Shown here in pieces: positions 1 to 22,800 of a stretch of DNA of 27,757 bases (position 1 is the stretch's first letter; each line of letters starts with the position of its first letter). Under the pieces are notes generated by a model. That model was not told the DNA's origin. It ran no database searches and was given only the letters and a program-made list of their open reading frames with translations. The position numbers and the translations under genes are program-made. The stretch is from a virus. Location of the stretch: positions 1 to 27,757 of the IMG/VR virus record IMGVR_UViG_3300043411_002715, one strand, 5' to 3'.

Positions 1-3000
1 CTAAATGAATTATCACAAACGATTCCAGTATCACAACCAAGTATGTTTTCCGATCTATATGCTCTTGATACAGAGGAAAATTCTCCATCTGTTAAAACCT
101 TTCCAGAGAAGTTATGTTCTAATACTAGTGAATCTGTGATGTTTGTATAATCACTATCAGAAACAATTACATCTACAGGAATGTTAATAACCCTAGAAGA
201 TCTTGCTCTAAAGACCCATTGACCCACTTGTTCAGACATTGGGGATGTGCATAATTCATCAAACCAAATGAAAACGCCATCTGTACTAGATGCCAATTGA
301 GGTTCACCAACTGTACCATTAGGAAAATCATTTCTAGATATACTAAATGGTAATCTACTAGGATTAAAACCACTTTTTCCTATGTATATATCACCTACAT
401 CATATCTGTTCTCTAGGGTGCTATGTACTTTGAGTAATTCAAGATTGGAAAGAATGCTTGAACTTGGTATTCCAATCATTAAACCTTTTAAATTTGTTGA
501 CTCTATACTGAGACCAAAACTTAAATTACAACTATAAAAACTATCCGTATAGAACATCTGTGACTGATGATTATCGATTAATATCGATACTAAATTATTT
601 AGTGGATCTCTAGATACTTTATAATCATGAAAATTATTCCAATCTAACACATTAGATTTTTCAAAATTAAAAGCGTTTATTGAATTTGTTATTTCATTTT
701 TTGTTAAAGCATCTACTGATTTATAGAAAAGCCTCAATATTCCTGATGGCAAAGAATTATTAATTGAAGTAGAACTTTGAGCTGATAATGATGTATTATT
801 ATTGCCAAATTTTTTAACAGCTAATTTTATAAATGAATCAGGCAGTACATTCTTGTTTAAAAACCCTGAACTTTCATAGAACCCTATAACTTGATAAAAA
901 ATTCCATTTGAATCCACCAATATAAATATGTTTGGTTTACTTTCTATAAAGTTATAACTTTCTTTAAATATAGATAAGTCAAATAACTCTGACAACTCTA
1001 TTGAAATCTGAAGATCTGAAAAATTTAAAGAGTTTTCAATGTTTGTATCTATTGAACAAGAGCAATTCTTTGTGAATTGATATCTATCAAAATTTACAAC
1101 TTCGTCACCTAAAATTTCATTAATTTCATCATTCTTTGACGCATCAAATGAAAACTCATTTATCTGTGTTAAATTAAACAAAAATCCTGAGGACCTATCT
1201 CCATCTGCAATAAATATTGAACCAACATTATATATTGATGCTGGTGATGCCAAATTAAATGGCCATGGGCCCTCTATAATGTTTCCTGGGCCATGTTTTC
1301 CAATAATAAAAAACTCTTCGTTTGGATTTTCATTATTACAATAATCAAAACCATTACTAGGGTTGGAAATTATTTTTCTTAAATCATTAAAATGACTTCC
1401 AATAAGGTTTACTTTTGCTGTAACAAATAAATCGGATTTTAGCGTTCTATTGAGATTATTTTGCTCTTTATATAAACCATAGGATCCAACGTTAATTCCA
1501 AACGTTTCGCTTGCATCTGATTTAAAGTTAAATATACTGATTCCTGAGCCTGTGTTTATTTTTCCAACCTGATTGTTAACAGGAAATAATGACCAGCCAT
1601 TACTGAAATCAAAAGGATCTGATTTTTCAGTTAATACAAACTTTTCTTTTCCAAAATGATCTAAATCAAAAGTTAAAGTTGCATCATTGTTAATACCTGA
1701 CCATTCAGGTCTAATCCAAGCCTCCAGAGTTCCCTCGTTTAAATTAATTGATGATAAAGCTGGTATATCAACAACCACATCATCATTAAATTTCAACCCG
1801 CCATCAAATTTTCCCTCAGCGAAATTTAAAACACCTTTATAATTTACATTTTCAGGACTTAAATAATCTCGACCTAAAACCCAGTTTCCAAATATTAGTT
1901 CATCAATATTTGGGTTAATTTTTGTAAATGACTTAATTAAATCATTATAAGATTGTACAGTTGGTCCCTTAGGAAAGGATTGCAATGTTCCAATTAATGC
2001 ATCTCTATATAATTCCCTATCAGTATTAATTCCAAAAGATTTAAAAAACGGTATGTTCGTCAAATTTCCAAAATTATTTTTTAAAGCATCTCTTAATGCT
2101 CCATACTTATATGTGACAAAATATTGATCACCCTCATTAATAGAATCACTTATACTCCAATCAATAGAGTTGTCACCATACTCATACCATACAGCTATTT
2201 CATCTGCAACATAAGCGTAATCAACAAACACAAAACCAAACCTATAATCTATTGCTAGTTCTGATCCTATTGCTGGTATTAAATTTGTTAAATAAATTAC
2301 CTCAATTAGGCTGCCGCTAGGGAATGGTGCATCTATAGGTATGGTTATTGTCATGCCAGTATCGGTATATTGTATTGTTGGTTTTATTACAACACTGACT
2401 TTACCAATAATGGGATCGCTTACGGATGTATTTTCTGCTGGCGTTAATATCGTAATATTTGATAAAATTGTGTCTACAGCCGTAATCAAGAATCTGTTTC
2501 CATCTTGATCTAATAAATAATCTTCATTTATATCAACATCAGATAAATCCAAACCTGAAGCTATATCTAACTGTGAAGAACCAATGCCTGATGTAATTGC
2601 AACTAAATTTAAATCATCAACCTTAGTTATATTTAAATTTTCATCAAAAATAACCTGATCTGTTGTTGCCAACTTAGCTTTGACAAATGATGTAGCGTTT
2701 GCATCAGAAATGGTTAACACTAAATCATTACCATTGTCAACTAACCTTCTCTTTTGACTCTTTTTAAAATCAATAATGTTGTTATTGAAATAAACTGAAT
2801 TTGCCTCATATAAATTTTTCCCACCATTCTTTTTTAATGTTATTAAATTTTCTGCCGTAGCATCTTCTAATCTCAAGGACTGGTTTGATGATTTTAAATC
2901 CGATCCAGTTAAATCTGTTAATTCAAAAATTGAATTAATACTATTTATAGTACAAGGAACTAATACTGTGTAATCATCCAATATCTTACAAATTAAGTGT

Positions 3001-5540
3001 CTTTCTCCATCTTCGTTTGACGCTTTAGTTTCTCCATCATAAATAGTTAGACTGTGTTCCAAGTCAGTTGGCGTTATAACTTCACTATCATTAGAGAATT
3101 TATAAACCTTGCTAGCCTCACTAAGAGACTCAGGGCCATTTCTCTTCTTTGCGACACCAGATACAGCAAGTATATTTTTCTTATTTGTTTTAATACCAGA
3201 ATAGAAATAATTTACATTTCCTAATTCAATACCTTCGTTTAAACCAACGCTTAGGTAAATTAATCCGCGAGAGTAATCAACTAAATAATCTCCAACCCTC
3301 CTTAATTTAGAAATATTTTTATAAAAAATATCATCTTTATTAGATGTTATTAATTGAGATAAGCCACCAGAACTAGATTTATTCAATCCAGATACATCAT
3401 CTGTATTTTCAAAATACCTTTCTCTTTTAAATAAATTTAAGTCTGAAAATTCCAATGATGTGTTTTGTAAAGTTCCCAAACTATCTAGGTTTTTATTCAA
3501 AATTCCTGTTTTTTCCAAACTAATTACATAACACCTAGTTCCCAAAATAACCTGACTACCTACTGATGGTGCTGATGCTGTAGCACTTATTCCTGCAGAG
3601 CTTATTTGATTATTTGAATCAGGAAAATCAAAAAAGCTAATGTTTGTATCAGAAACATCTATTTCGTTAGATACTTCTCTAAAAAAATAGTCTGAAGAAT
3701 TAGACGAAATCAATTCAGCGGGAATTCCTGGCTTGAATTGTATACTATTATTGGATACATTTGAGGTTACAATAACATTAAAAACAGGAGCTATAAATTC
3801 ACCTATAACTTGAAGACTTTCGTTAGTGACTGTTAAAAATTTTGACTCTTCCCCAAATATATTTTTAATTTCTGGAGATTTTTTACCTGAAAAAGCTATT
3901 TCGTTATCAGTATTAAATAATGTATTATATACCTCTCCGGTTGTTTGATTTAAAATTCTAAACACATTGGTGATTGGGGCGTTTTTTGTAGTTATTCTAA
4001 ATGATTGACTTAATCTATTTTCTACAAACTCTGGCATGACTTCTTTGTGTGATTTGACTAAGTAATCAACACCTTCAGCAAAAGTTTTATCATATCGAAT
4101 AAAAATTTGAGCCTCTTGATTTGATAAATTCCTATTTTGAATAGCCACGATATTTTGATCGTTTATAGAATAATCTGAAGTGTTTTTAAATTCCCTTCTA
4201 AATTTATAACTAACTATAAAATTATTTCTACCTGTTCCCTCTCCAAATTTATCATATCCAACAACAAAGACTTCTCCTGTTTTGTAATTTACAGAATATT
4301 CTCCTATTTTTGAAGGAAGATTGCTTGAATTAAAAACAAGTTCTTTTGAAAAATGATTTGGTACACTATCATCATTTTCTGATGTTGAAAAAGTTAAACC
4401 TCCAATTGATATAATTTCATTATTTGAATTAACAATTGGGGCATGATTTAAGAAAAAGTTAGTACTATTTGCTGGTACTGATTCATTATCAGAGTTTTCA
4501 ACTCTTGAAACTTCAACCTGATCTTCTAATATATTTCTTCCTAAATCTTTATAAAGGTAAGATACAATAAATCTATCCAAAATTGTTGGCTTACTAACAT
4601 TAGAGAACTCAGATAGGAGAACTTGATTTGTATTAAGTTTTTTATATGAGAATGCATAATCTTGATCATAGTAATTATCATGAATAGTATATTTAAATCT
4701 TTCTATATCATAATCAATTCCTATGTTACCTTCGCAATCTTCAACATCTGTACTTGATATAAACTTAACACTCAAAATTTTAATAATATTATTTTTCTTT
4801 AAATTAAGCAAATATCCATCAAAAGAATTTCCTTCTGTACTAGATGAAATTTCTTCATCAGAGACTGTAACTTCTTGTAAAGAAATTGGGTAGGCTGAAA
4901 AAATACGATTTCTTGAAAATTTATTATCTATTGTATAATCTAAAATTTCAAATTTGGGTGCATTACCAGAAGGTTCTTTTGACACTCTTAATATTTCATA
5001 AGCATTTTCATTCGCTAAACGATCTGTTGCGCCAGCACTTCTTGTTCTTATTTCATCAACAACATCAACAGATAGATAATTATTACTAAGAACCTCTCCT
5101 ATTTTCTTTTGCGCCGTATATAACTCATTAGATTGTGCTGATATAATGTTTTTTATTGTTGTATTTTCAATTTCAAACAAACTTGGTATTGAATCAAACA
5201 TCCTATCTCGAATAGGATTTACATTATCAATGCCTACAAAGAAAAGTTCTCTTGAATTATCATCAAAAGGTAATGTATGACCTCTCAAAGATTCAAATAA
5301 GACTTCATCTGTATCTAAAAATTTAAGAAGATAGTAATTACCTGAAACTTGCGGTCTGGTTTTAAGGGTTACCTCTCTATCATTGATAACTACGCTTAAC
5401 ACTTCAAGATCATCCACAGCACCATTTAAAGATATAATTTGAAAGTTTTTTGATGACAAACTTAAAGATAGCGCATCTGTAAAAGATATAATCAACTCTG
5501 TTGTCGATGGTATTGAAAATGAAGTTGGTCTAAGTAACAT
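1..5540 (-). CDS. Giant baseplate wedge/receptor-binding protein with LamG-like domains (3' end outside window)
   Basis: Translating the minus strand from the ATG at 5540-5538 gives an open frame with no stop to base 1, so at least 1846 codons; the C-terminus is missing. AGGA eight bases before the ATG supports the start, 21 bases after the J gene stop. Residues about 105-180 are helical and charged, loosely like a gpI-type segment. Three beta modules follow, each with a [ND]YxxGxVxV-like core, near residues 412, 750 and 1092. Residues about 1125-1200 contain LRDAL...LYRDAL...KGPT, and about 1234-1500 look like a LamG/concanavalin jellyroll (EGTLEAWIRPEW). A second lectin-like part lies near 1637-1770 (HDYKVSRDP, GVFIWFDEL). 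Its position directly after J matches P2 gpI/H or T4 gp7-gp10, so it probably forms the outer baseplate and may bind surface glycans. The reading frame is certain; the function is inferred. Confidence 0.85.
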   Translation of the reverse strand, partial: MLLRPTSFSIPSTTELIISFTDALSLSLSSKNFQIISLNGAVDDLEVLSVVINDREVTLKTRPQVSGNYYLLKFLDTDEVLFESLRGHTLPFDDNSRELFFVGIDNVNPIRDRMFDSIPSLFEIENTTIKNIISAQSNELYTAQKKIGEVLSNNYLSVDVVDEIRTRSAGATDRLANENAYEILRVSKEPSGNAPKFEILDYTIDNKFSRNRIFSAYPISLQEVTVSDEEISSSTEGNSFDGYLLNLKKNNIIKILSVKFISSTDVEDCEGNIGIDYDIERFKYTIHDNYYDQDYAFSYKKLNTNQVLLSEFSNVSKPTILDRFIVSYLYKDLGRNILEDQVEVSRVENSDNESVPANSTNFFLNHAPIVNSNNEIISIGGLTFSTSENDDSVPNHFSKELVFNSSNLPSKIGEYSVNYKTGEVFVVGYDKFGEGTGRNNFIVSYKFRREFKNTSDYSINDQNIVAIQNRNLSNQEAQIFIRYDKTFAEGVDYLVKSHKEVMPEFVENRLSQSFRITTKNAPITNVFRILNQTTGEVYNTLFNTDNEIAFSGKKSPEIKNIFGEESKFLTVTNESLQVIGEFIAPVFNVIVTSNVSNNSIQFKPGIPAELISSNSSDYFFREVSNEIDVSDTNISFFDFPDSNNQISSAGISATASAPSVGSQVILGTRCYVISLEKTGILNKNLDSLGTLQNTSLEFSDLNLFKRERYFENTDDVSGLNKSSSGGLSQLITSNKDDIFYKNISKLRRVGDYLVDYSRGLIYLSVGLNEGIELGNVNYFYSGIKTNKKNILAVSGVAKKRNGPESLSEASKVYKFSNDSEVITPTDLEHSLTIYDGETKASNEDGERHLICKILDDYTVLVPCTINSINSIFELTDLTGSDLKSSNQSLRLEDATAENLITLKKNGGKNLYEANSVYFNNNIIDFKKSQKRRLVDNGNDLVLTISDANATSFVKAKLATTDQVIFDENLNITKVDDLNLVAITSGIGSSQLDIASGLDLSDVDINEDYLLDQDGNRFLITAVDTILSNITILTPAENTSVSDPIIGKVSVVIKPTIQYTDTGMTITIPIDAPFPSGSLIEVIYLTNLIPAIGSELAIDYRFGFVFVDYAYVADEIAVWYEYGDNSIDWSISDSINEGDQYFVTYKYGALRDALKNNFGNLTNIPFFKSFGINTDRELYRDALIGTLQSFPKGPTVQSYNDLIKSFTKINPNIDELIFGNWVLGRDYLSPENVNYKGVLNFAEGKFDGGLKFNDDVVVDIPALSSINLNEGTLEAWIRPEWSGINNDATLTFDLDHFGKEKFVLTEKSDPFDFSNGWSLFPVNNQVGKINTGSGISIFNFKSDASETFGINVGSYGLYKEQNNLNRTLKSDLFVTAKVNLIGSHFNDLRKIISNPSNGFDYCNNENPNEEFFIIGKHGPGNIIEGPWPFNLASPASIYNVGSIFIADGDRSSGFLFNLTQINEFSFDASKNDEINEILGDEVVNFDRYQFTKNCSCSIDTNIENSLNFSDLQISIELSELFDLSIFKESYNFIESKPNIFILVDSNGIFYQVIGFYESSGFLNKNVLPDSFIKLAVKKFGNNNTSLSAQSSTSINNSLPSGILRLFYKSVDALTKNEITNSINAFNFEKSNVLDWNNFHDYKVSRDPLNNLVSILIDNHQSQMFYTDSFYSCNLSFGLSIESTNLKGLMIGIPSSSILSNLELLKVHSTLENRYDVGDIYIGKSGFNPSRLPFSISRNDFPNGTVGEPQLASSTDGVFIWFDELCTSPMSEQVGQWVFRARSSRVINIPVDVIVSDSDYTNITDSLVLEHNFSGKVLTDGEFSSVSRAYRSENILGCDTGIVCDNSF

Positions 5541-5548
5541 CTTATATA

Positions 5549-5552
5549 TCCT
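5549..5552 (-). promoter_or_regulatory. Ribosome binding site of the post-J giant gene
   Basis: The minus strand reads AGGA here, eight bases before the ATG at 5540. It sits in the 21-base gap after the J stop codon. This site fixes the start of the protein that runs off the left edge. Confidence 0.6.
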
Positions 5553-5561
5553 AAATATTTA

Positions 5562-8500
5562 TTAAGTAATTCTAAAATCTTTTCTTGAAATAGAAACGAA
5601 TATTATTTCGCCTGCCTCTATAGATTCATTATCAAGTGCCTTTATGAATGATTTTCTACCAGAGGAACCATCTTCGTTAAATAACGAAATGTTAACTGAA
5701 TCAACTCCAGACACAGAGGTTGCCGCGTTAATTACATCAGAATAATCTATCGTTCCACCTAATGTGGTGCTGTTTAACAAATTTGAAACCGAGTTAGATA
5801 CATTTTCTAAAATGGTACTTGTTTCGCTCAGAACATTCTCATTAATAATCACCTCACCTTTTATATTTACAGTTATAGTAGGGGCTTCTTTTACTAGAAC
5901 ATCTGCAGTTATAGATCTAACTGATTCAAGGTTGGCTGTTACATCTGAAATCAGCCTATTTAAATTATAACGAACTGTTATTCGCTCTCCTTCGACTGGA
6001 GCTTTGAATTTATAATTAACAAAATAAGATGTATTACTACCAGGCTGGCTTGTTGGATTTATTATAAGAGATCCTATCAAAGACCCTGAAGGACTTTTGA
6101 ATCCTGATGATACAGATACCTTATTAATTTTAAAAAATTGTTTATTTGTTATAACCTTTGAATTTGTTGCAAAATACAAATCTTCAAAATCATTACTATT
6201 GTAAATTAAACAATTAACTATAATTTTTTCTCCCTCACTAAAGCTTAAAGCATTGTTTGTTGCGGTATTAGGCAATTCAAAATGATAATTTTTAAGACTT
6301 TCATCTGTCTCCACTAAACCAAAGCCGTACAGATTTGTATGAAGTTTTTGCCCCATTAATTCAAATGTTTTATTAGAATCATTTAATGATGTAACAAGAT
6401 CTACTCTTGCGATACCTATATTATTTGGAATTGATGTTAGATTTAAAGAAGATCTTATTGCTAAACCCAAGTCAAAAACTCTTCCTGAAATGGAGTTACC
6501 TGCTGTAATAACTAACTCATATCTTGTTAGTGATGTACCATTTATCTTAATTTTTCCTGGTTTTGTGATTCCAGAAACTATTACACTTAACCTAGTTGGA
6601 CCAAATCTTTCTATGCCATATATAGAACCTTCCGAATTAAATTTATAAAAAACTGGTTGATTACTTCCGGTTACTGTAGATAAATTTGAATTAAGTAATG
6701 AATTAGAATAATCCGATCCACTTACTGGTAAACTAGTAAACGATTGTGATGGAAGTAAATTTGTTATTTCTGCAACATAATCAATAAAAACTTCTTCTTC
6801 TGTTAGAAAAGCTGAATCTACATTTGATAGTACATCATTTCCTGATAATATATCTGTAGAAGGTAATGTTATTATATCATTTGAATGTGATCCATCACCA
6901 TTACTAATATTAAAGAATTCAATCTTATTATAAATAACAGTTGCGACACCAGAAATATCCGCGGGACAGTCAGATGGTAAATAAATAGTCCTACCTGAGA
7001 AAGAACCGTCATCAGTTATTGTTTTGTACAATTCGACTCCAGATGAACTCTTAATTGATACTATATCATCAATAGCATCATCACCTGAACTTATCTCTAA
7101 ACCTAAAACTTGATCTCCATCACTACCATTTACTAACGATAGAGTTGCTGTTGTAGTTAGGGCTGAATAAACAGAAACAACTCTGCTAATATTATTAGCT
7201 ACCTGAATTTGATATTCAATTCCACTCTGATCTCTTTCAATAACTGACTTTTCTGAAAAAACACCATTACTTACACCCCAATCGATAGAATCACTTACCG
7301 AACTATCTTTAAACTGAACCCCTGTATATTCCCCGTTAAAATCAATAAATTTATCAAAATAAAGTCTCCACACATAATCTACACTTAATACATCTGCGCT
7401 TGATGGTAGTGTTTTCCCTGATATATAAACCTCTCCACTTGTATTAGTTCCTGTTTCTGAATTAATATTCTGTGACTCAACAACATAAACTTCCCCTGTT
7501 GTTTTATTAACAATTCTGGTAACAGTGGTTATTGGATAATGATTTAATTTAATTAATCTTCTATCGGCAGAACTAACACTTGAGTTTTCTCCAACAATTG
7601 ATATATCTTGAAAAACATTTAGAATATCTGACGTGCCAGTAAATCTTAATGCGTCAACACTATTTTCCGACTGTTTTATTACACTTTCTGCATCCACCTC
7701 TTTATAGCTTGATATGAATTTTATTTTATCAAAACCAAACGGACTCCCTCCTGTTTCAACGTTATTATCTTTCACCAATTCAAAATTGCCTACTACATTA
7801 CCATTAGAATCAAGACTTTTTTCTGCAAATATTCCTGAGCTACTACCAATAACAGAAATGATCGATTCGGCTGGTTGAAGTGGGAGAACTCCATTTTTAA
7901 AAGCTTTGACTCTCCTTTCTTCTGAAGTTAGTGTTATATCAACATTACTTTGCCCTAATATGAAGTCATTTCTTTCATCAGAAGCACTGCCTGAGCCAGA
8001 TTTATCTGTAAATATATAAGACTCAACGATTTCTTCTGTTTTTTTTCCTAAAATATACAAATCAACCTTGCCACCAGTGCCAGAATTTAAAATCCTAAAA
8101 CTGCCATCATTAACCTCAATAGTCTCTGTACCATCTCTTAACATTAAAGTGTTTCCTGGTTCAATAACTACAGCATCATTAACTCCACTTACACTAATCG
8201 CTGCATTCCTATACCCAAACGATGTTCCTGTATTAGAACCACTAAAAATTGCAAAAATTCTTGATTTGAATGCTGCGTCACTTTCTTCATTTGTTCCGCC
8301 ATTAAATGATTTTAAATTTGTTATTTTTAACCCATCAGATAATGTATGTTCAATTAATTGAAAACTTGATATATTACCTGAACTTCCAGAATTTATTGCT
8401 CTAACCGGAACCTCTATTGCATAACTATCATTTATACCAGCCAAATTTAATGCAGACCTCAGTCTGGAAGCTGTTGCCGAAAACCTATTTTTTTCAGCCG

Positions 8501-8879
8501 ATGTCATAATATAATTACCTATTGTTTTAAATTGCAATCCATTACGAGAAAATACACCTGTATTGGCAGGGATTGGTATATCTCCAACAATATCATTAAC
8601 AGTAAATACTGCTATACCATTAGATGGGGAACCTGAATTTTTACTCATACCAAAATTACTAGCCCAACGTTCTAAGTCTTTACCTTTTGCAGAATCCGGT
8701 GATTGCTTTTCCGAAACTAATAGTAAGCTTCCATGGAGCTTTTCTATTTGATCAGCTGGTATGTCAACAAAAAGGTCTCTTGATACAGTGCCAGGTTTTG
8801 TATCTAAATTAGGCTGAGTTAACCTAAGTCTCTCTAAAATAGAGTTCACAATTTCACTAAAAGATCTAAATATTGCCAC
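5562..8879 (-). CDS. Baseplate J-like (gp6-type) wedge protein with large central insertion
   Basis: Baseplate wedge protein that forms the ring around the hub and moves when the sheath contracts. The N-terminal 240 residues follow the baseplate J pattern: an early helical part (LTQPNLDTKPGTVSRDL, near residues 19-35), then IPIPANTGVFSRNGLQFKT, the NSGSSGNI turn, and NGGTNEESDAAFKSRI near 190-205. The last 150 residues match the gpJ end (VNIKGEVIINENV, then ATSVSGVDSVNISL). Between them, about residues 300-950 are a beta-rich, Ser/Gly/Asn-rich insertion. P2 gpJ has about 300 residues and T4 gp6 about 660; this has 1105. The start codon is GTG. The gene follows gp25 by 11 bases, the usual W-J order. 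Residues 446-466 resemble a stretch of the next gene. The family call is strong; the role of the insertion is unknown. Confidence 0.9.
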   Translation of the reverse strand: MAIFRSFSEIVNSILERLRLTQPNLDTKPGTVSRDLFVDIPADQIEKLHGSLLLVSEKQSPDSAKGKDLERWASNFGMSKNSGSPSNGIAVFTVNDIVGDIPIPANTGVFSRNGLQFKTIGNYIMTSAEKNRFSATASRLRSALNLAGINDSYAIEVPVRAINSGSSGNISSFQLIEHTLSDGLKITNLKSFNGGTNEESDAAFKSRIFAIFSGSNTGTSFGYRNAAISVSGVNDAVVIEPGNTLMLRDGTETIEVNDGSFRILNSGTGGKVDLYILGKKTEEIVESYIFTDKSGSGSASDERNDFILGQSNVDITLTSEERRVKAFKNGVLPLQPAESIISVIGSSSGIFAEKSLDSNGNVVGNFELVKDNNVETGGSPFGFDKIKFISSYKEVDAESVIKQSENSVDALRFTGTSDILNVFQDISIVGENSSVSSADRRLIKLNHYPITTVTRIVNKTTGEVYVVESQNINSETGTNTSGEVYISGKTLPSSADVLSVDYVWRLYFDKFIDFNGEYTGVQFKDSSVSDSIDWGVSNGVFSEKSVIERDQSGIEYQIQVANNISRVVSVYSALTTTATLSLVNGSDGDQVLGLEISSGDDAIDDIVSIKSSSGVELYKTITDDGSFSGRTIYLPSDCPADISGVATVIYNKIEFFNISNGDGSHSNDIITLPSTDILSGNDVLSNVDSAFLTEEEVFIDYVAEITNLLPSQSFTSLPVSGSDYSNSLLNSNLSTVTGSNQPVFYKFNSEGSIYGIERFGPTRLSVIVSGITKPGKIKINGTSLTRYELVITAGNSISGRVFDLGLAIRSSLNLTSIPNNIGIARVDLVTSLNDSNKTFELMGQKLHTNLYGFGLVETDESLKNYHFELPNTATNNALSFSEGEKIIVNCLIYNSNDFEDLYFATNSKVITNKQFFKINKVSVSSGFKSPSGSLIGSLIINPTSQPGSNTSYFVNYKFKAPVEGERITVRYNLNRLISDVTANLESVRSITADVLVKEAPTITVNIKGEVIINENVLSETSTILENVSNSVSNLLNSTTLGGTIDYSDVINAATSVSGVDSVNISLFNEDGSSGRKSFIKALDNESIEAGEIIFVSISRKDFRIT

Positions 8880-8890: not shown

Positions 8891-9322
8891 TTAAATAATT
8901 CTAATTGTTAAACTTTCTGTAATAGGAGTCATAGCTCCTGTTTGAACAGTAATGAAAATATTATATAGCCTTGGGTCAATATTATCTCTTTGAACTGAAG
9001 AATCAATTAATGCCAATATACGCTCTCCAGGAGTTATAAATTGCTTTCTAGACTGTGATTTTTGTAATGCTATTAATTTATTAACAGAATCTCTGACAGA
9101 TGATTGCAAATCCAATTCGAGTAATTCTTGATCGGCAACCATACCTATGCTTAATGAACCAATTTCACTGCCATAAGAGGGATGGTATTTATTTTCCCCC
9201 AATTTTGTTAATAATATTTTAATGATATCTTGTCGAAGTTTCCCGTTATCTACAACAATGTCCATTAGACCATCTTGTGATATAGACAGATCTCCATTTT
9301 GGATTTTTAAATCAAAAGACAT
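8891..9322 (-). CDS. gp25/gpW-like baseplate wedge and sheath initiator
   Basis: Small baseplate protein of the GPW/gp25 family, which joins the wedge to the hub and nucleates the first sheath ring. Its 143 residues fit the family (T4 gp25 has 132). Near residues 36-60 is the conserved stretch ILLTKLGENKYHPSYGSEIG, equivalent to the usual 'LLT..GER..NP.FGS' block, and the C-terminal strand LYNIFITVQTG fits the family's final beta strand. The EPR triad typical of gp25/TssE is not seen; PGERI stands at the comparable place (near residue 98). AAGGA ten bases before the ATG supports the start. It lies directly before the J gene, the standard W-J pair, which strengthens the call. Confidence 0.88.
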   Translation of the reverse strand: MSFDLKIQNGDLSISQDGLMDIVVDNGKLRQDIIKILLTKLGENKYHPSYGSEIGSLSIGMVADQELLELDLQSSVRDSVNKLIALQKSQSRKQFITPGERILALIDSSVQRDNIDPRLYNIFITVQTGAMTPITESLTIRII

Positions 9323-9373: not shown

Positions 9374-11251
9374 CTAATCTCTCCTTTCATCATTGTCAAG
9401 TTCATTAATAAACACTTTGTATCCATCAATTACTAACTGTGTAAATTCATTCAGGGCATCGACTGTATCAATCTTGTCTCCATCACCAGGCAAAAGATTT
9501 TTAAATTCCCCATTTTTAATTCTATCGTATTGAGATTTAGATAGTAGCCCTAATAAACCTTCCTCTGATATAGTAAACATTGCTAACGCAAATACGGCAA
9601 GATCTATTGTTCCTATACCAATATCAGTTCCTAATATCACACCGATTTCTTGTGCTTTCTTTTCTATGTTAATTGCCGCTTGTTTATTTCTGCTTTCTAT
9701 AATCTTCTTTAGATCTTCATCAATTCTTTTTCTTGGCACATCAATAACACTTATTAACCCACTCATCATATGAGAATTATGCATAGATGAACTTCTCTGT
9801 GTTTGTGATTGCAAATCCATAACTTCGGAATTATCCCCTAACAAAAATAATATAGAGTCCTCAATTAATTTTTGTTGCTGTAAAACCAATAACGAATTTT
9901 CACTAATAGCCTCATCAGGAGCTTGTTCTTCAGTTCCTGTCATTTGAACGGCAGCCTCATTAGAAGCTATATTTTCAACCTGTCCTGTTGATGCATCTTC
10001 GTCTATTGGTAATCTTCGAGATTTTTCCATTTCATTAATCATAATATCTATATCAGAATATAATTTCTGCGCTAAACCAGATATGGCACTCCTTAATCTT
10101 AATATAAACAAAGATTCTAGTACACCAAAGTTATCAGGAATAACTTCCACACCACCTGATTCACTCCCAATTTCGTAATTGATTGAAAAATCATCTATAT
10201 TACTATCGTCGGATTTTAAAAAAGTATTTGAGCCACTTATTTTATCTAAACGAATTCTTATTACACTCTCTAATAATGTAGGTCTAATATTTGAATTATT
10301 AATCTTTCTATTTTTTACAGAAGAGAATGGAGTTGATATAATTTTATCAGGCTCATTTATATATCTTGATATTTCAATATTTTGAATAGGTGGTAATAAT
10401 AAATATGAAAATTTCCATAAGTCTTGAGATATTGACGCTATCCCCACCTTAACTTCTTCTAAAGAAGAATTATTATGTAATTCTTCTATTTTTGTTGTTC
10501 CTATAGCATTACCAGTATAAGGATCCAAAAAAGGTTCGGTTTCCGAAGTTCTCATTATTTCTGTTGGTGTAAATGTAGCAATTTCTCCAGTTGACTTATC
10601 GAACAACTGATTTGTTGCTCGATCTACAATTGTGTCTAATAAATTGGCAATTTCATCCATTGATAAGTTTCTTATTGATATGGTATTACCAGCCAACTCA
10701 GATTCTGTTTTTTCTGAAATGTTATAAATACTATTGTTTATTAAAAACTTTCTAGAATCTCTATTTTTTTGTCTCTCATTTAAAATAGTATTTTTCACTT
10801 CTTGATATGACAAATTTAAAGCATTACCAGTTATTGGATCTATAGCTTTTAATGTCTGAGAACTTCTTATTTCACTATCTTCTTGTGTTAAACCGAATTC
10901 TGTTAAACCAACTGATGGCATACCAAGCATTCTCATAAATGCATTTTCATAAGACTCTTGTGTAGCAACTGTATTGGAAAAATCAACATCAAATTGATTT
11001 GTGTCACTATTTATAAAAAAATCAATTGGTAGATAACTAGATCTCATCTGACGAATAGCTTTAGCTATTGATAAAAATTGCTCCGTAACTTCTTTTGATG
11101 AAGCTTCTTCTTTATAAGCATTTATTAATGATTCTAAATCTAAATACCTATTAGAACCTTCTCCCTGTTGCTGTTTTGAAATTCCAAATGTTCCATTTAG
11201 AATTTCCTCTGCACTTTTAATTCTTGTTTCCAAATCCCTATTGTCTGACAT
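9374..11251 (-). CDS. Uncharacterised 625-residue baseplate-module protein
   Basis: I do not recognise a family. The protein is acidic and mostly helical in pattern. It contains an internal duplication: residues about 127-146 (LKAIDPITGNALN) and about 231-250 (EPFLDPYTGNAIG) share RxSxT...DPxTGNA. A Gln-rich helix lies near residues 450-468 (LLVLQQQKLIEDSILFLL). A hydrophobic stretch near 544-565 (IGTIDLAVFALAMFTI) is interrupted by an Asp and has no flanking signal, so a membrane role is uncertain. Its ATG overlaps the preceding stop as TAATG, with GGAG five bases upstream, so it is probably coupled to the 2082-residue gene. It is the only gene here ending in TAG. Its place between spike-side genes and gp25/J suggests a structural link between hub and wedge; this is inference from position only. 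Confidence 0.8.
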   Translation of the reverse strand: MSDNRDLETRIKSAEEILNGTFGISKQQQGEGSNRYLDLESLINAYKEEASSKEVTEQFLSIAKAIRQMRSSYLPIDFFINSDTNQFDVDFSNTVATQESYENAFMRMLGMPSVGLTEFGLTQEDSEIRSSQTLKAIDPITGNALNLSYQEVKNTILNERQKNRDSRKFLINNSIYNISEKTESELAGNTISIRNLSMDEIANLLDTIVDRATNQLFDKSTGEIATFTPTEIMRTSETEPFLDPYTGNAIGTTKIEELHNNSSLEEVKVGIASISQDLWKFSYLLLPPIQNIEISRYINEPDKIISTPFSSVKNRKINNSNIRPTLLESVIRIRLDKISGSNTFLKSDDSNIDDFSINYEIGSESGGVEVIPDNFGVLESLFILRLRSAISGLAQKLYSDIDIMINEMEKSRRLPIDEDASTGQVENIASNEAAVQMTGTEEQAPDEAISENSLLVLQQQKLIEDSILFLLGDNSEVMDLQSQTQRSSSMHNSHMMSGLISVIDVPRKRIDEDLKKIIESRNKQAAINIEKKAQEIGVILGTDIGIGTIDLAVFALAMFTISEEGLLGLLSKSQYDRIKNGEFKNLLPGDGDKIDTVDALNEFTQLVIDGYKVFINELDNDERRD

Positions 11252-14200
11252 TAGTTCTCCAACGCTGACCCAAAAGCTTGTGGATCTGTAATAATGTTAT
11301 CTCCTCCACCACCCTGCGAAGAAATAAATGTTCCTTCTTGAGAAGAATTAACAAAATATATAGTTATAATACGATCAACTTTTGTTAATGCGCCCAAAGG
11401 TGGAGATGATGATACTGCTTGAGTTAAATTATCTGGAACACAATCAACATCAGAAGCTGAATTCGTAGTATCTAAACCAGAATAAGTTAAAGCCTGTATT
11501 GTTCTATCACAAATTCTTGCTCTAAGCTTTACATTCCCTACCTTAGATGCAGTTAACTTTGCAATATATGATGTTCCTGACTTAATTACAACATTATTAT
11601 TTTCCAAGATAAGATTTGCACTCCCAGTCGTGTCACTAATAATATCTATTGATATTCTTTCTGTCAAATCACCAATAATTTCTTTATCATAACTATCTCT
11701 AGGAATAATTTCAATATGTGCAATTTTACCAACTTCAATATTTGCGTTATCACCAATTCCTGCAGCGTATTCTCTAGCTCCTGTAAATGCTGGACCTATT
11801 GAATCGAAACCATCTAGTATTTCTTCATCAATATCTCCGTTTACAAACTCATTCGATGTTGATAAAGTATTATCTTCAATAACTTTAAATGAAGTATTCA
11901 GACTATTAACCACGTATTTACAAATTTGATCCGCAGAACCCTCTAAACATGATATAAGATCATCATTGGCTCCACTAAACTTATCTATATCAATCTCAAC
12001 TAATGGCAAAGAACCTGCAGATTGGGCATCTCTGACACTTGAAACAAGACCTTTTGCTAAAGTTAGATAATCCTGTAAACAGTTCTGAGAATTTGATATT
12101 ATATTGGTGATATCATCAACATTATTATCTTCAAAAGGAAAACTGTTTATTGATGATGTTGAACAAAATTGTTGTAATTGATCAGCTGCCTGTCTCATAT
12201 CAAAGAAATACATTTGCGGAAAATCAAAAACTTGAATTGTACCATCATCTGTAGATGAGTCATTATCTGTATCCAATTCAACATCTTCTCTTGAGAATTT
12301 TAATTTAGGTGCTGACGAAGCATTAACTATTTCTGCTGTAATTTTTGAAACGAAACCATCATCATCATATTCTATTCCATTTTGAATTATAAAATAAACA
12401 TTAAATTCATCATCCATAATTACCAATTTAGGAATGTTATCAAATGTTCTTGTTACAGATTCTGTTCCAGTTTGAACTGGAATACCCGTTGTTTCGTCCG
12501 TTGTAAAAACTGGAACGTCAATATTTATAATCAATGGTTTAACTGATGCCGTTTTTTCAGATGTATTTATATTCAAAAATTCTTCACCATCTACTGGACT
12601 ATAAATGTTGCCAAAAGAAGATATTTTTATTTCTCCATTAATATTTGAAAAAAGTGCTAGAGTACTATCTGCCGTTTGATTTGGCTCAATATTTTTGGAA
12701 TTAAGAGTTGTTGAAATACCCTTTCCTTTAAAAAGAAATTCTACTTGTGTAGGATTTCCAGCCTTCTTAGAAGTTTTTGTAAAAGCTGGAGCCATGGTTG
12801 CATTAAATTCAACCCCATCGTTACCAATATTGGTCCCCCTAAGACTGTCAGGATCGAGAGCCATAGAATTCAAATATGAACCACTGACCGTATTAGCAAT
12901 AACCAATCCAACCGTGGGCTCAATTAAATAAGGAGAACTTGTACTCCCTTCCTCAGAGTCCGTTGAATAAGATTGAGCTATTGGTAACATGACATCAGGT
13001 ATGACAAACAAATCAGGTGCAGCAATACCTGCAACTATGCCTGCCAACATAGTTCCATCAACACCACAATCAGCTTCACCTCCAGCCGGATTTATATTAC
13101 ATGGAAATCTAAAAATTAGCTGTAACAATTCTAAGAAAATTGATAAAATTGATAAAATTGGTTCTAAGAATGATAAATCCGCCTCGATCTCGAACAAATA
13201 TTCTGATAAAGTCTCTTCTAAAGATTTTATTGCTGTAAAATTTATTGGTTTTTGAGCCGCTAAGTTAATTGCTCTAGCTATTTCATTTATTGCTGTTATT
13301 GTAAACAATATTTTGTCAATAACACATTGCAATAACTCTAACAAATGTAGAATCAGCTGAAGAAACATTACTGGTATTGAAATTTGTGGTAACAACAAAA
13401 TTAAATCATATAAACATTGAAATAATCTGATAACTGATTTTGCTATCTTAACTGGATTTAACAAAGAACAAATGACATCAATAATACAAAATATAACCTG
13501 AATAGGAATCATTAGTACTTGAAAGCCATTTAGTGATATTTTCAATTCTGCTAACAAATGAAAAGAAAAATCACAAAATGATTTTATTAAATCTTTCGGA
13601 ACATTTGCTTTATCTAAAACAATACTCGCAAACCGTAGGGGGGCATCCTTTAGTTTATCAATTAAACCCTGAACATCAGGAATTTTATCTTTTAATGGTC
13701 CTGATAACATATCTTGATAAATCTCATCCAAATCAATAACAAAGTCTCTACCAAGATTCAATTTCGCTCTATTTCTTGTCGAGTTATCTGTAGAAGCACA
13801 AACAACAAAACAATTGTCTTTTACCAAAAGAGCTTCCGGGGCTTCAACTATAGCTATATACTCTCCTGGAGTACTCGTAGATTCTGGACGACCTCTTGGC
13901 TTTAAAACTATATCATCTAATTTAATGATAAAATCTCTATCTGTGTTTTTAACCAAAAATTTATATTTTTTTCCAACAGTTATTGGTATTTCATTACCAG
14001 AACTTAACTTTATTGGCTCTTGTTCTTCTTCCCCAATAGAGATTACCTCAGGAACATTATATTTTATTGATGCTAAACCATCTAATAAAATATTTCCAAA
14101 TAATAATACTGTATCTTTTGTTTCATTTAATAAGTAACTTCTTGAATTAAATGTTCCGGCATTATTTATTACAAAATAATTTCTTACTAATTCAGAAACG

Positions 14201-17200
14201 TTACCTTCTGCAATTTCTGGCAATAGAGAGCTTATTTCATTTAAATCCTGACTATTAAATTTAAAACTAGATGATGCTGTTGATTTAACATTAATGTTTG
14301 AAAAACATTTATGTGTAATTTCTTGTTCAGTATTTGTTGGATCAAAAATTAAACCATCAGTATCAGAATTTGGAAAAATTGAATCTAATAAATTTGTCTG
14401 GTTTTCTGCATTGCCAAGTAATCCAGATGTTTTTTGACTTGTTAAAAAATCTCCTAAATTAGGTATTAGCTCCGAATCTGAGATTTCCACATTTAATGTA
14501 AGAATTCCCGTTCTATCATCAATAGAAAATGATGTACTGTTTGTATTTTTTACTACCGCCGTAAATTGCCCTGAATATGAAGAGGTTGCGTAATCAGAAC
14601 CAAACCTTTTCTCATTTTTTTCAATAACAAATGGTAGCACTCCATCTATAACTGATGTTATATTATCCAATATAAATAATAACTTACCTGACCCAATACG
14701 AATAGGTTCTTTTGATATTTTTTTTGAAATATCTATTCCACCTAACTTTATTTTATATCTCTTTCTGAGGAAACTTTCTTTAACACCAGATATTATCAAA
14801 GCTATTCTATTTATCTTGTTAAAGACATTAATTCCACCAGGACTAAAGTCTGTAGTTCCAAATATGTCTTCTGAAAGAAAGAATGGGTTGCCTGCAAAAG
14901 ATGTCGTTATTGAGGAATTACCAGTGTCAGCCGCAAGCCCTAGGACTGTTGCTGGTTCTATAAAAGCAGGCTCTTCTGAACTTCCTAACTTTAGTAAGGA
15001 GTAATCTTCTGATGCAAGAGTTAATTCTGTAGAATTACCAAAAATTTCTTTCAAAGATCTTCCTGAAAACAAAAAATACCCTGTTTCTATATTTTGTAAT
15101 CCTGAAAAGTTATACATAGAATATGCCTGCCCAGGGAATTTAAGTGACGAGCGCCGGGCGGACATTGGATCCTTAACAAAGTCAGATAATAAGGATGAAC
15201 TTAATTTATATTCTATATTTAAAGGCAACAATAATCTGCCTACCGATGTCGTGATTACACCAATATTTTCCGGGAAAGAAACTTTTGATAGAATCTCATT
15301 TGCGGAATTAGACTCAGGGAGAGCTAAATAAGCAAAGACATCGCTACCATCTTTGAATATTTTTGACTTAGATTTTATCGATATTGTTGCACTTTGACCA
15401 TTTTTAAACAATGGAATTCCAACAATAGGTTTTGTTCCAAAAACAGCTGACGAAACCTCACCATCCTGAAACTTGGTTATTAAATTACCCTTTATAGGTC
15501 TTTCGTCATTAAAGTTACTAACCAAATATATAGAATCTTCTGAAGAAATAATGTTGGATCCAGAACCTTGTATTGTTACTATATAAGATTGATTCGCTAA
15601 CAACCCAAAACTTTCCATACTTCTATTTGAAAAATCTAACAAGATTGCGGAATTAGTAGGTTCAGACATAACCCCATCTCCTGGCACAAATATGAATATA
15701 GAACCTGTGTCAGAATTAACTAATTTAACCTGCTTAGCGTTACCAAGATCTTCGCCTAAAATTTCTATAACAACTGGGTCTGCTATTATTATTGGAATAG
15801 ACCCCACAAAACCATTTGGGTTTATTTTTGTTATAGATGGCGTTGCATCTTCTAACACAATATTAGGTCCACTTATTCTTGTTATTTGTCCTAGTGAATC
15901 ACCTACATACGCAATGTATTCGATTGCGCCATCTAAATCTTGTATATTCAGATCACTAAAATCATTGAAATTAAATGTAGCAACATAATTTCCATCCTGA
16001 TTTTTACTAGGTATTGTACTAATCCACTTACTTGGAGTAATTTCATAAAACTTTGGACGGGTTGAATTTAAAATTTCTAAAACACCATATGAAGAAATAT
16101 TAAAATACCTACTATCGTTTTCTGGTAAATTTTCGCCATTATTGCTTAATATCATCTCTGGACGATTAGCTTCCCCAAAAATAACATTTGCATCCTTTTG
16201 TCCAAAAAAAGGAAACCCATTATCCACTAAACTATCGCTTGAAGAACTAAAACCCGGATAATACAGGTCCACTTTATTTCTATAATAATTTAAGTCCGAA
16301 ATTGCTGGAGAACTATTTTCATTTATTGTTGCCGTCCTATTTTCAGTACTTTGAATTGGTTTTGTTAAAACTGGAACGGAAAATAACTCTATTGTGTTAC
16401 CGAAACTAGATATAGTTCTTCTTTTTGAAGCTTTTTGATTCTTAACTACTGGTGAGAGATAGACCCTCACACTTTCATCTTCCGCTAGTTCAAAAACTAT
16501 ATCTAAATTAGATAGTTTTGGAAATTCATGTTGTTGATCTCCAACAAAGTTAGCCAAAGGAGCCTGTTTAAATGAAGAAATTTCTAATCTTGAAATAGTC
16601 GATTCTATTAGAAATTCAAACCAAAGACTACTTTGTGATGAAATAACACTACTACCCATTCCTGCTGAATTTCTACCTGACATATCAGGCATCTTAATAT
16701 ATATTCTTCCATCCATTATTGTATAATAACCACCAATTGATGGTGTTGTATTTTGCCCACCTAAAACATCTTCATTTAAATTTACGATAGGAAAAAATTC
16801 AAGAATAAGATCAACTATATTAGGTTCATTTCCACCTATCAATGGAAAAGAAGGAAGCTCAACATTTAGAAGGGTTGAAGAACTTTGTACAATTTTATTA
16901 TTTAAATCGTTAGCCAATGTTTTTAAATCACCATACGTTCTACCTGATACACCAACTATATCTGCAAAAGATACCGAGTCTAATAAATTATCTAATATTT
17001 TAGAAAATGCTTCAACAGGAATAAATCTAAACTCACATACCCGATTCATCTCTGGGGAAAAAATTCCATCTTTAATGGTTGATGAGTCTTCGCCATTATA
17101 TATAGATAAATATATTGATGGTGCTCTTAATTTATTTTGTTTGTCATCAACAACTTTAAGATTTCTTCTTGCAATATCAAAAAGAGCATTATTTACAAGA

Positions 17201-17499
17201 ACTCTGGATTTAACAAGATCTTCAATTTTGTTTTGAAGATTTAATCCCTGTAATGAAGATAAATTTTTAGTTAAAATATTTGAAACATTTATAGAAGAAC
17301 TTAACTTTAGATTTGATGCACCAAAGCTAACTACCGAACCGCCCGCTAAAGGCAAAATAGTCTGTGATCTTGGAAACTCAATTTTATAAGCAGAATCAAT
17401 CTTTGTTGAGTTAACTCCATCACCACAATTAACTGGCAAACTATCTACACAGTTATCTGTTGTTTGCTTAGGAACTAAACTTGATAAAATCGATGACAT
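11251..17499 (-). CDS. Giant 2082-residue baseplate/hub-associated protein with TIG-like, hydrophobic and Ig-like regions
   Basis: Very large structural protein of unknown exact role. Residues 1-530 are mixed alpha/beta (RAPSIYLSIYNGEDSS, CEFRFIPVEAFSKILD). Residues about 533-656 resemble an IPT/TIG domain (PSITKINPNGFVGS, then VVIEILGEDLGNAKQVKLV). Residues about 1315-1510 are extremely hydrophobic, with several segments of transmembrane quality (IPIQVIFCIIDVICSLL; LILLLPQISIPVMFLQLIL; FLEPILSILSIFLELLQLIF) and unusual cysteines; most other tail proteins here have few. Residues about 1926-2000 look like an invasin-type Ig fold (HIEIIPRDSYDKEIIGDL...KVGNVKLRAR). GAGGA ten bases before the ATG supports the start, two bases after the spike stop. 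It sits between spike and gp25, where no protein of this size is standard. It may decorate the hub, contact lipid or form a membrane-crossing structure; these are inferences. Confidence 0.88.
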   Translation of the reverse strand: MSSILSSLVPKQTTDNCVDSLPVNCGDGVNSTKIDSAYKIEFPRSQTILPLAGGSVVSFGASNLKLSSSINVSNILTKNLSSLQGLNLQNKIEDLVKSRVLVNNALFDIARRNLKVVDDKQNKLRAPSIYLSIYNGEDSSTIKDGIFSPEMNRVCEFRFIPVEAFSKILDNLLDSVSFADIVGVSGRTYGDLKTLANDLNNKIVQSSSTLLNVELPSFPLIGGNEPNIVDLILEFFPIVNLNEDVLGGQNTTPSIGGYYTIMDGRIYIKMPDMSGRNSAGMGSSVISSQSSLWFEFLIESTISRLEISSFKQAPLANFVGDQQHEFPKLSNLDIVFELAEDESVRVYLSPVVKNQKASKRRTISSFGNTIELFSVPVLTKPIQSTENRTATINENSSPAISDLNYYRNKVDLYYPGFSSSSDSLVDNGFPFFGQKDANVIFGEANRPEMILSNNGENLPENDSRYFNISSYGVLEILNSTRPKFYEITPSKWISTIPSKNQDGNYVATFNFNDFSDLNIQDLDGAIEYIAYVGDSLGQITRISGPNIVLEDATPSITKINPNGFVGSIPIIIADPVVIEILGEDLGNAKQVKLVNSDTGSIFIFVPGDGVMSEPTNSAILLDFSNRSMESFGLLANQSYIVTIQGSGSNIISSEDSIYLVSNFNDERPIKGNLITKFQDGEVSSAVFGTKPIVGIPLFKNGQSATISIKSKSKIFKDGSDVFAYLALPESNSANEILSKVSFPENIGVITTSVGRLLLPLNIEYKLSSSLLSDFVKDPMSARRSSLKFPGQAYSMYNFSGLQNIETGYFLFSGRSLKEIFGNSTELTLASEDYSLLKLGSSEEPAFIEPATVLGLAADTGNSSITTSFAGNPFFLSEDIFGTTDFSPGGINVFNKINRIALIISGVKESFLRKRYKIKLGGIDISKKISKEPIRIGSGKLLFILDNITSVIDGVLPFVIEKNEKRFGSDYATSSYSGQFTAVVKNTNSTSFSIDDRTGILTLNVEISDSELIPNLGDFLTSQKTSGLLGNAENQTNLLDSIFPNSDTDGLIFDPTNTEQEITHKCFSNINVKSTASSSFKFNSQDLNEISSLLPEIAEGNVSELVRNYFVINNAGTFNSRSYLLNETKDTVLLFGNILLDGLASIKYNVPEVISIGEEEQEPIKLSSGNEIPITVGKKYKFLVKNTDRDFIIKLDDIVLKPRGRPESTSTPGEYIAIVEAPEALLVKDNCFVVCASTDNSTRNRAKLNLGRDFVIDLDEIYQDMLSGPLKDKIPDVQGLIDKLKDAPLRFASIVLDKANVPKDLIKSFCDFSFHLLAELKISLNGFQVLMIPIQVIFCIIDVICSLLNPVKIAKSVIRLFQCLYDLILLLPQISIPVMFLQLILHLLELLQCVIDKILFTITAINEIARAINLAAQKPINFTAIKSLEETLSEYLFEIEADLSFLEPILSILSIFLELLQLIFRFPCNINPAGGEADCGVDGTMLAGIVAGIAAPDLFVIPDVMLPIAQSYSTDSEEGSTSSPYLIEPTVGLVIANTVSGSYLNSMALDPDSLRGTNIGNDGVEFNATMAPAFTKTSKKAGNPTQVEFLFKGKGISTTLNSKNIEPNQTADSTLALFSNINGEIKISSFGNIYSPVDGEEFLNINTSEKTASVKPLIINIDVPVFTTDETTGIPVQTGTESVTRTFDNIPKLVIMDDEFNVYFIIQNGIEYDDDGFVSKITAEIVNASSAPKLKFSREDVELDTDNDSSTDDGTIQVFDFPQMYFFDMRQAADQLQQFCSTSSINSFPFEDNNVDDITNIISNSQNCLQDYLTLAKGLVSSVRDAQSAGSLPLVEIDIDKFSGANDDLISCLEGSADQICKYVVNSLNTSFKVIEDNTLSTSNEFVNGDIDEEILDGFDSIGPAFTGAREYAAGIGDNANIEVGKIAHIEIIPRDSYDKEIIGDLTERISIDIISDTTGSANLILENNNVVIKSGTSYIAKLTASKVGNVKLRARICDRTIQALTYSGLDTTNSASDVDCVPDNLTQAVSSSPPLGALTKVDRIITIYFVNSSQEGTFISSQGGGGDNIITDPQAFGSALEN
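13136..13160. repeat. Short 9-base tandem repeat inside the 2082-residue gene
   Basis: The plus strand holds 2.8 copies of AAAATTGAT in phase with the codons. On the minus strand it encodes the repetitive hydrophobic segment PILSILSIF, flanked on both sides by FLE, each from a TTCTAAGAA stretch. The period of three codons keeps the frame, so slippage here would lengthen or shorten the hydrophobic helix without breaking the gene. Confidence 0.7.
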
Positions 17500-19859: not shown

Positions 19860-22800
19860 TATTTAAATCCAATACTAATATCATTTTGTTTTTGAATACC
19901 AACATCGACAGCATTACTAATATCTAGTATACCAATTTCAATTATATTTGAGACCTTAAAGGAAATTGATGAAATTAATTTATTTTCCGATTTAATATCA
20001 AGCCAACTTCTTTGCTTTGGCCCTCCCTTGGGAAAAATTGCTTCATAATCACCAAGACCAACTAATTTACTATCCAAGACTTGGGCGTTTAAAAGACTTG
20101 GATTTAAAAATTGAATTTCGCTTGTGCTTCCATTATCTTCCATGTAAACAATTTGCTCTGCAAGTTTATCATTAGGTATTGATACAATAGGAAGTCCATT
20201 TGGCAAGATCATTGGAACCACACCTTTTGTTGTCCCTACATCAACACCTATTCCCCGCCGAACTCCAGCCGATGTATCTAATATATCATCAATAATGCTT
20301 GTTGGCTTAGTTTGTGTCAAAGTAACTGGTTCTTGTAACAACTTTTTAACTATATTAAGATTATTTCTAACAATTTCTTCATCAGGATCTGATCTGCCTC
20401 TAACAAATCCCCTAATAAGCACAATTCTATTGCCTATTAATAGGCTACTTAAATCGGCCATCATGTTAGTAAACCTTACTGCATTATCTTTGTAATCTAA
20501 TAAAACAGAAATGTTTTCATCAGTAATCTCTACATTTTGTGGAAACACCAAACTACTATCTGGCTGTAGGGTTTGATAATTGTCATCTCCTTTTTGATTT
20601 CTATAAACAAGTATATTTCCTGCCATAGGATCTTTTGTAAACTGTTGCCCGATTACATCTAATGGACTAGGTAAATAATTTCCTGGTGGGTGGCCAAATT
20701 CTAAATTTAATGTTGTTGTGAAAATTTGACCAATTTCATAATCATGCTGAACACCTCTTACATAATACAAAAGACCTTTGCTTGGAATATAAACAACATC
20801 TCCGGGTTCATAATATTCATTACCAACAATAACAACATTACCTTGATTAATCTTAACTCTTTGAAGTTGAAGCTCTAAGATGGCATATGGTTTAGCCTGT
20901 AATTCAGAATCACTTGCGAATGGGAGAGATCTGTTGCCGCCATGCTTATATCCATATTGCCTCCATAAATCAAAATCTGTAGCTCCTGCCCAAAAATACC
21001 TTTCTTGATATGCAGATTGCAAAGAATCACCAACAATAGGTGCATCACCAACTACGTCTATTCTACAAAAATCTGGTGGTTGTTCTGTGTATGTACAGCT
21101 GATTATATCTTCATCATAAATGATATATCTTTTTCCTGAACCTGGCCCTAATAAATTTTTTGTATCATCCTCAATTAAATGATCAAATAAAGTCCCTTGG
21201 TTAACATCACCTGTAAAAATATCAGTTATTGTTTTTACAGTACTACTTGCTCTATCTAAAACATCAATAATTTTATTTGTAGAATTAATAACGCCTGATA
21301 GAAGACCAGTAGCTTTAGCTTCCTTTATTGCTGTAAATTCCCCTGATAATATTTCTTCAACTTGTTCCAACTCATCTTGTTTTTCTTGATTTCTTTGCAA
21401 GATAGTTACCAAATTATCCCGATCTGATATGGTTTTTTGTAATTTTTGTAAATAATTATTAGCTTTAGTTATATTATCAGTTTCAGAAGAGGATGATGTT
21501 GAATTATTATTAAATATAAAATCAGATGTCTGGAATTTTCCACCATTTGTAACTAAGTCTGATGCTGGATCTATTCCAGATATTTTAACAAAATTTTCTC
21601 TCAATAAATTTAGATTTGAGGCGTTTGCAATTTTTATTGGATTAACAGATGATGGTTGTGTTGCCACTGTCAAAAGATCATTTGTTAAGCCAACACTCTC
21701 TTGAAATATGGGATCAAATGAACCCAATAATGTTGTTGTATCTCCATTTAAAATATCTCCGTTCTTCCCTAATCCAGCCTCTAAGTTCAACCCATTACCA
21801 AGAACTTGACTTCCTGTGTCAATAATATTACCTATAGAAAATTGAAACTTGCCATCAAGAAGATCTAGCTGCCCAGATGCTCCTACTTCATTTACACCAA
21901 AAAATTTTAAACTAGCTTTGCCTGAGGCTGAACCTGCCAGTAGAATGTTATTACTAACACTAGGATTGAAATTAGGAATTAGGGTTCTGTCTGGGTATTT
22001 ATTCAAAAGCAAGCTAAGTAGCACTATTCTGAGGTTTAGACTATGAATCTCCATTCTTAGGCTAGAAGTTCTTGATTGAAAAATCTGAGTTAGAAACTCA
22101 GGAATAATACTCTTGTTAGTATCTTGGCTTATCTGAAATAGTCTTTCTAAGACTGTAAGTGGAGTTTTATTCCATTGTGGCGGACGAAATTCCAAATGCC
22201 CCTGTGAGTTGCAAAAAAATTCAAGATTAATAAATTTGGCTGCCTCAGAACATTTATCATAAACACTTATAAAGTTGCCTTTAAAAATTTTATAATCAGC
22301 ATCTTTTATTTTAAAAATAAAAGGACGTATATCTGTTTGTTCATCATATTGATCTGAAACGATAAATAAATTTTGATCTCTGTTTAATCTAACATCTTCA
22401 ATTCTTCTTTGTGCTCCAACCAAAGTCATGGCTCTAGTGATTTGATGATCAGCTGTATAATTTCCTGTTAGTGGTAAAGTCTTGCTTTTTCCAAATAAAT
22501 TAAAATTTTGTGTGATAATATCTGAAGATGATACAGTACCACTGCTCATTAAAATATTTATTTGTTCTGATATGCCACTTTCAATAGATCTTCTTTCCTC
22601 TATCAAGGAATTTAATAATATTCCACCAGCATTATTTGAGCTCTGTAGACGTCTGATTAACGCATCGAGTTGAGCTCTTCTTTGTTGAAGTTGTCTAACT
22701 TTTTCATTTAATCCATTTCTTAATATATTTGAATTTGCTGTTTGTAATAATGTTTGACTACTCATTGTAATCATTCTGTATGGCCTAAAGTTTCCGAAAT

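Follow-up and report, generated by a model that had tools for sequence, protein, structure and literature searches.

A conserved module common to two neighboring baseplate wedge genes of a jumbo-phage family, consistent with one old duplication

Two adjacent genes in the baseplate region of an uncultured virus both encode the string TTGEVY within a longer stretch of likeness. An earlier note on this DNA had read the strings as a sign of module duplication or swapping between neighboring wedge genes and perhaps of a shared docking surface. The locus raises the question of whether the two proteins carry a module of common descent and, if so, whether it was duplicated once or has continued to move between the genes. 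The DNA analyzed here (the window) comes from IMG/VR, where it is a virus record with a length of 27,757 bases; its large genes are all encoded on the minus strand.

Identity of the J and Q genes

The three genes at the center of the analysis are as follows.

5562..8879, minus strand: J, 1105 aa with a GTG start, a Baseplate_J / gp6-like / Tri2-like wedge protein
3..5540, minus strand: Q (the post-J protein, at the gp7 / Tri1 position), 1846 residues, cut by the window end
8891..9322, minus strand: gp25-like sheath initiator gene, adjoining J upstream (phrog_120, E 6.6e-10)

The wedge role of J rests on its homologues. It matches Baseplate_J (PF04865) in Pfam with 85.6 bits against a gathering cut-off of 21.1 (E 4.3e-24) and the baseplate wedge family phrog_6 in PHROGs at E 2e-41, while its profile matches the diffocin protein CD1371 (8v3w) at E 2.3e-9. 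Its predicted structure aligns with baseplate chains of Mu, phiCD508, diffocin, and phi812 at a Foldseek probability of 1.00 over ~284 alignment columns, and judged by these matches J is homologous to Tri2. The upstream gp25-like gene also matched Sheath_initiator at E 6.9e-6, which is under Pfam's cut-off. Searches of Q in Pfam and PHROGs returned no match, and neither did its joined flanks. Helical segments of Q do match gp189 of phage G, which itself matches the baseplate protein family phrog_1160 at E 4.5e-12. Q follows immediately after J in every relative locus whose flank is present, and complete Q proteins in these relatives measure 2180-3335 aa. Gene order, together with a 61-residue match to gp189, suggests by way of these homologues that Q is a gp7/Tri1-like wedge protein.

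Several other features of this region were apparent. Very large proteins are also encoded at window positions 11251-17499 (2082 aa) and 19859-24673 (1604 aa), the former having no confident match in Pfam. Within Q (window 3-5540), residues ~1235-1295 form a stretch that appears LamG/concanavalin-like by eye, EGTLEAWIRPEW, for which a Pfam search gave no match. Q also contains an internal repeat, with residues 340-455 (NYKTGEVFVVG) resembling residues 740-900 (DYSRGLIYLSVG) at an hhalign P of 1.4e-7.

Large insertions in both proteins

Bacillus phage G has the same gene order and served as the reference for the extent of the two proteins. By hhalign, residues 4-279 of gp188 match J 5-297 (P 1.6e-33) and residues 477-585 match J 961-1070 (P 1.3e-11), i.e. 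both ends of J. The N-terminal region of gp189 matches the flanks of Q, with residues 68-128 aligned to Q 1151-1215 (P 2e-7) and a weak match of residues 14-62 to Q 110-156 (P 0.0014). At the places between these matches, gp188 has 198 residues and gp189 has ~5, and J and Q thus carry large insertions relative to phage G.

5997..7991, minus strand: J insertion, residues ~297-961 (~664 residues), separating the Baseplate_J core from the C-terminal domain
2091..5072, minus strand: Q insertion, residues ~157-1150 (~990 residues)

All of the shared modules described below are located inside these insertions, and both gp188 and gp189 lack the TTGE module. The AlphaFold model of J has a mean pLDDT of 87.3 and its insertion consists mostly of strands. 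Q was modeled as a fragment comprising residues 180-730 (mean pLDDT 84.1, and ~71-88 around the motif), with its module b segment and SIDW region falling outside of the model. A Foldseek search with this fragment found no PDB match below E 0.001, and its matches in a viral library were weak only.

A TTGE module common to J and Q

The strings and positions reported previously proved correct: TTGEVY starts at residue 460 of J and residue 533 of Q, J 446-464 corresponds to 7488-7544 and Q 519-537 to 3930-3986, and the ISGK of J (486-489) and the FSGK of Q (550-553) come into register after a 9-residue gap. The features involved are the following.

7356..7634, minus strand: J module a, residues 416-508; a long strand, the TTGE-turn hairpin, and two more strands
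7479..7604, minus strand: shared core, J copy, residues 426-467 (E431, P449, N458, TTGE 460-463, Y465)
3921..4046, minus strand: shared core, Q copy, residues 499-540 (E504, P522, N531, TTGE 533-536, Y538)

A direct BLASTP comparison of J and Q yields one standout alignment, with 42% identity over 50 residues (E 1.9e-5). For more sensitive comparisons, profiles were built from 60 J and 50 Q sequences; close relatives had been found via Q, and 80 metagenomic jumbo-phage loci with J via J alignment. The hhalign comparison of the J insertion with Q scored 67.4 (P 1.1e-6), compared to maxima of 24.4 when single columns were shuffled and 42.7 when 8-column blocks were (60 shuffles each), and the TTGE modules alone matched at a probability of 97.4% (P 1.3e-11). 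The minimum P among 216 control comparisons was 0.018, all of these controls being made with tiles of the unrelated 2082-aa protein; a control profile built from a 785-aa protein contained too few sequences and was left out. When 621,440 gapless 24-column pairs from the J and Q insertions were ranked, the pair beginning at J443/Q516 came first with a score of 53.4 (z 12.4), whereas the next independent window pair scores 20.6. Two other profile matches were set aside, namely a first alignment of whole J with whole Q, whose 419 columns we regard as over-extended, and a match of J 385-515 with J 505-565, which is an overlap artefact.

At 42 residues, or ~65 with the SGK stretch included, the shared core is short. 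In 10 of its 42 aligned columns the same residue occurs at a frequency of at least 70% in both J and Q (E431/E504, P449/P522, V453/V526, R455/R528, N458/N531, T460/T533, T461/T534, G462/G535, E463/E536, and Y465/Y538), and the P, N, E, and Y of the core are invariant in both. Every J and Q sequence aligned from the 80 loci has its copy of the module. At the level of profiles, the J and Q TTGE modules are shown to be homologous.

Specificity of the module pair

The module appears to be confined to these two proteins in the genomes searched. In four phage records of 317-473 kb, a model of the J module retrieved J first and then Q (E 2.0e-6 to 1.8e-3), with nothing beyond the J and Q frames at E 10, and a model of the Q module retrieved Q first and then J (E 1.1e-6 to 2.9e-5). 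Applied to four additional virus records and a 3.1-Mb bin, the J-module model again found J and Q, and across all ORFs of 87 loci it detected Q at E < 0.05 in 71 cases and no other gene class. Neither module copy gave a consistent match in Pfam at E 0.1 or a match in a PDB sequence search at E 10, and a tblastn search of 50,697 phage records with hand-written module consensus sequences was likewise without a match at E 10. On a limited search, we found no description of J/Q module sharing in the literature.

The strongest competitor to common descent is convergence, as N-x-T-T-G-E-x-Y is a favorable beta-hairpin turn that might have arisen twice in beta-rich arms. In the J model, the strands of module a span residues 416-431, 450-458, 464-469, 483-487, and 498-508, and TTGE forms the tight turn of the hairpin between 450-458 and 464-469, as this explanation would predict; related turns also occur in other Q hairpins (NYKTGEVF at 418). 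In the Q model, the turn is followed by strands at 537-543 and 547-551, and the J fold is seen there only in part. However, the likeness spans 42 gapless columns and includes E431/E504 far from the turn, no other protein in the whole genomes searched matches the module, and the score of the best window pair is far removed from that of the next independent one. We therefore judge convergence to be unlikely.

Further modules common to J and Q

Two more pairs of segments in the insertions resemble one another.

6165..6446, minus strand: J module c, residues 812-905; pairs with Q 240-340
4521..4823, minus strand: Q module c, residues 240-340; strand order and spacing as in J module c
6918..7082, minus strand: J module b, residues 600-654; pairs weakly with Q 1046-1086
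2283..2405, minus strand: Q segment like J module b, residues 1046-1086

By hhalign, the module c pair scored 57.2 against a block-shuffle maximum of 25.6 (P 3e-9) and the module b pair 33.2 against 22.6 (P 1.1e-5). A domain-by-domain comparison gave similar values (J 770-905/Q 180-340, P 3.7e-9; J 560-660/Q 1050-1150, P 1.5e-5; the TTGE pair, P 1.2e-10), and pairs a, b, and c each scored above 100 block shuffles. In whole genomes, the J module c model matched Q in five of six and no other frame, while the Q module c model matched J in one of six. The modules are ordered a-b-c in J and c-a-b in Q. Besides the TTGE pair, J and Q probably share two further pairs, at least module pair c, and part of the likeness in pairs b and c could be generic to beta-sandwiches. 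The SIDW motifs, which the earlier note had listed alongside the shared strings, do occur in both proteins (J 531 and Q 1125), but their surroundings are no more alike than expected by chance (profile score 22.6 versus a block-shuffle maximum of 25.5). They are also not collinear, being ~70 residues from the TTGE motif in J and ~590 in Q.

Age of the duplication

J and Q copies of the TTGE module (60 and 50 sequences, respectively) separated completely in a tree, with a support of 1.0 and none of the 110 misplaced. Out of 24 core positions, identities numbered 10.7 for J-Q pairs, 13.3 among J copies, and 15.0 among Q copies, and J-Q pairs from the same genome were not closer than pairs from different genomes (permutation p 0.135). 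The split in the tree and the lack of closeness among own-genome pairs are the expected trace of one duplication that occurred before the family diversified. Constraint on both copies appears to be strong: of all 20-residue windows in the Q insertion, the one with the TTGE motif is the most conserved, and its counterpart in the J insertion ranks among the top 4.5% of windows there. From these sequence comparisons, the TTGE module is best described as the product of one old duplication with no recent swapping. Of the two routes proposed originally, duplication between the neighboring wedge genes is thus favored by the profiles, the exclusive matches, the top window pair, and the clean tree, while swapping at the TTGE site finds no footing in them.

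A related explanation is that the modules of J and Q stay alike because they are still being swapped, or homogenized by gene conversion, and two relatives do exhibit modules in unexpected places. In L067, residues 786-872 of Q (L067:13243-19896) match the b model at E 4e-18 and form a J-type module b, IIDSVLYVKDSNDNELYNTALSDGSFAGSTITLPSDT, at the same place as residues 1046-1086 of the window Q; other Q proteins lack it or have a faint likeness. In L062, the homologue of the 2082-aa protein (L062:5183-7828) resembles Q 395-450 at its residues ~484-561 (E 1.6e-7), which indicates that modules are present in a third gene of the cluster as well. Against such an explanation, the L067 module b is most similar to the J of L037, a member of another lineage, rather than to its own J, and the reciprocal separation of the TTGE copies together with the own-genome comparison led us to reject recent gene conversion at the motif. 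We consider continued swapping to be very improbable as the source of the likeness. The L067 and L062 sequences hint at later movement of modules other than TTGE, and by sequence they show that modules are not tied to a single gene of the cluster. An assembly artefact or misjoined contigs can be practically dismissed, because even though the sequences are all metagenomic except for a few outgroup records, the J-Q order and both motifs recur across dozens of assemblies made independently of one another. Among these are contigs 178-473 kb long and a contig from a separate GTDB bin.

Proposed origin and role of the shared modules

We consider it likely that J and Q are gp6-like (Tri2) and gp7-like (Tri1) proteins whose arms derive from a common module stock, with the TTGE module duplicated once and early. 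Both proteins would have gained a large insertion, consisting largely of small beta-modules, in this phage family, and the two insertions would draw upon the same stock. A single duplication between the neighboring genes, earlier than the diversification of the sampled family, would have given rise to the two TTGE modules, both of which would have remained under strong constraint ever since. Module c, and more weakly module b, would also be common to both proteins, in a differing order. By analogy with AlgoCIS and diffocin, the insertions may form arms around the wedge core.

Small beta-modules, Ig-like and other beta-sandwich types among them, occur in several phage virion proteins. The TTGE copies differ in being specific to two adjacent wedge genes and in having no Pfam or PDB sequence match. 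The diffocin triplex contains two copies of CD1371 (Tri2) and one of CD1372 (Tri1) per wedge, and comprises a core bundle and a trifurcation unit with a wing domain inserted between the two (PMC10996793). Its proteins are far smaller than J and Q (350 aa in the case of CD1371). The AlgoCIS wedge protein Alg11 has a large extra domain IV (278-643), six copies of which cage the spike, and the gp7-like part touches the fibers and was termed a hotspot of evolutionary re-engineering, according to the portions of that report consulted (PMC8894135). Those portions do not describe sharing with a partner protein, and the Alg11 sequence lacks the module; Alg11 (7aeb_G) matches the J model at a Foldseek E of 1.3e-4 and a probability of 0.44, with a poor whole-chain TM of 0.12.

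If the stoichiometry of diffocin applies, each wedge would carry three module copies. The docking surface suggested by the earlier note is plausible on this analogy, and we tentatively suggest that the conserved turn may be a contact element in both arms, either binding the same partner or packing on its counterpart. A more speculative and rather doubtful arrangement would have the three TTGE modules of two J and one Q come together around the trifurcation unit in a cluster with pseudo-threefold symmetry. Through the ancient duplication between the genes of these partners, Q would then have become a partial mimic of J, and the cluster would connect wedges to each other, or to the spike or the fibers.

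What is new here is an old, exclusive, and strongly conserved module pair in two wedge partner proteins, located within insertions absent from phage G. It appears that a conserved phage machine has had two of its partner proteins enlarged with the same building blocks, one of which is near-fixed in both throughout the history sampled here for a large jumbo-phage family. The members of this family are giant phages, mostly uncultured, and the phage records searched contain no close relative of J or Q. The N-x-T-T-G-E-x-Y turn offers a sequence marker for the family as well as a precise target for finding what the giant wedge arms attach to.

Additional observations in related loci

The J proteins of 1365-1378 aa (L076, L077, L078, and L082-L085) contain an additional ~250 residues following the position that corresponds to J 738, with two repeats around IRLxDxKELW. 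In one of them (L078), part of J 747-928 resembles the Q of L076 with a pairwise E of 1e-8. Lastly, a J and a Q with both motifs are encoded on the 383-kb contig JAIXLO010000160.1 (L093), which was binned as a Chitinophagales MAG. This contig may be a jumbo phage genome, pointing to a Bacteroidota host.
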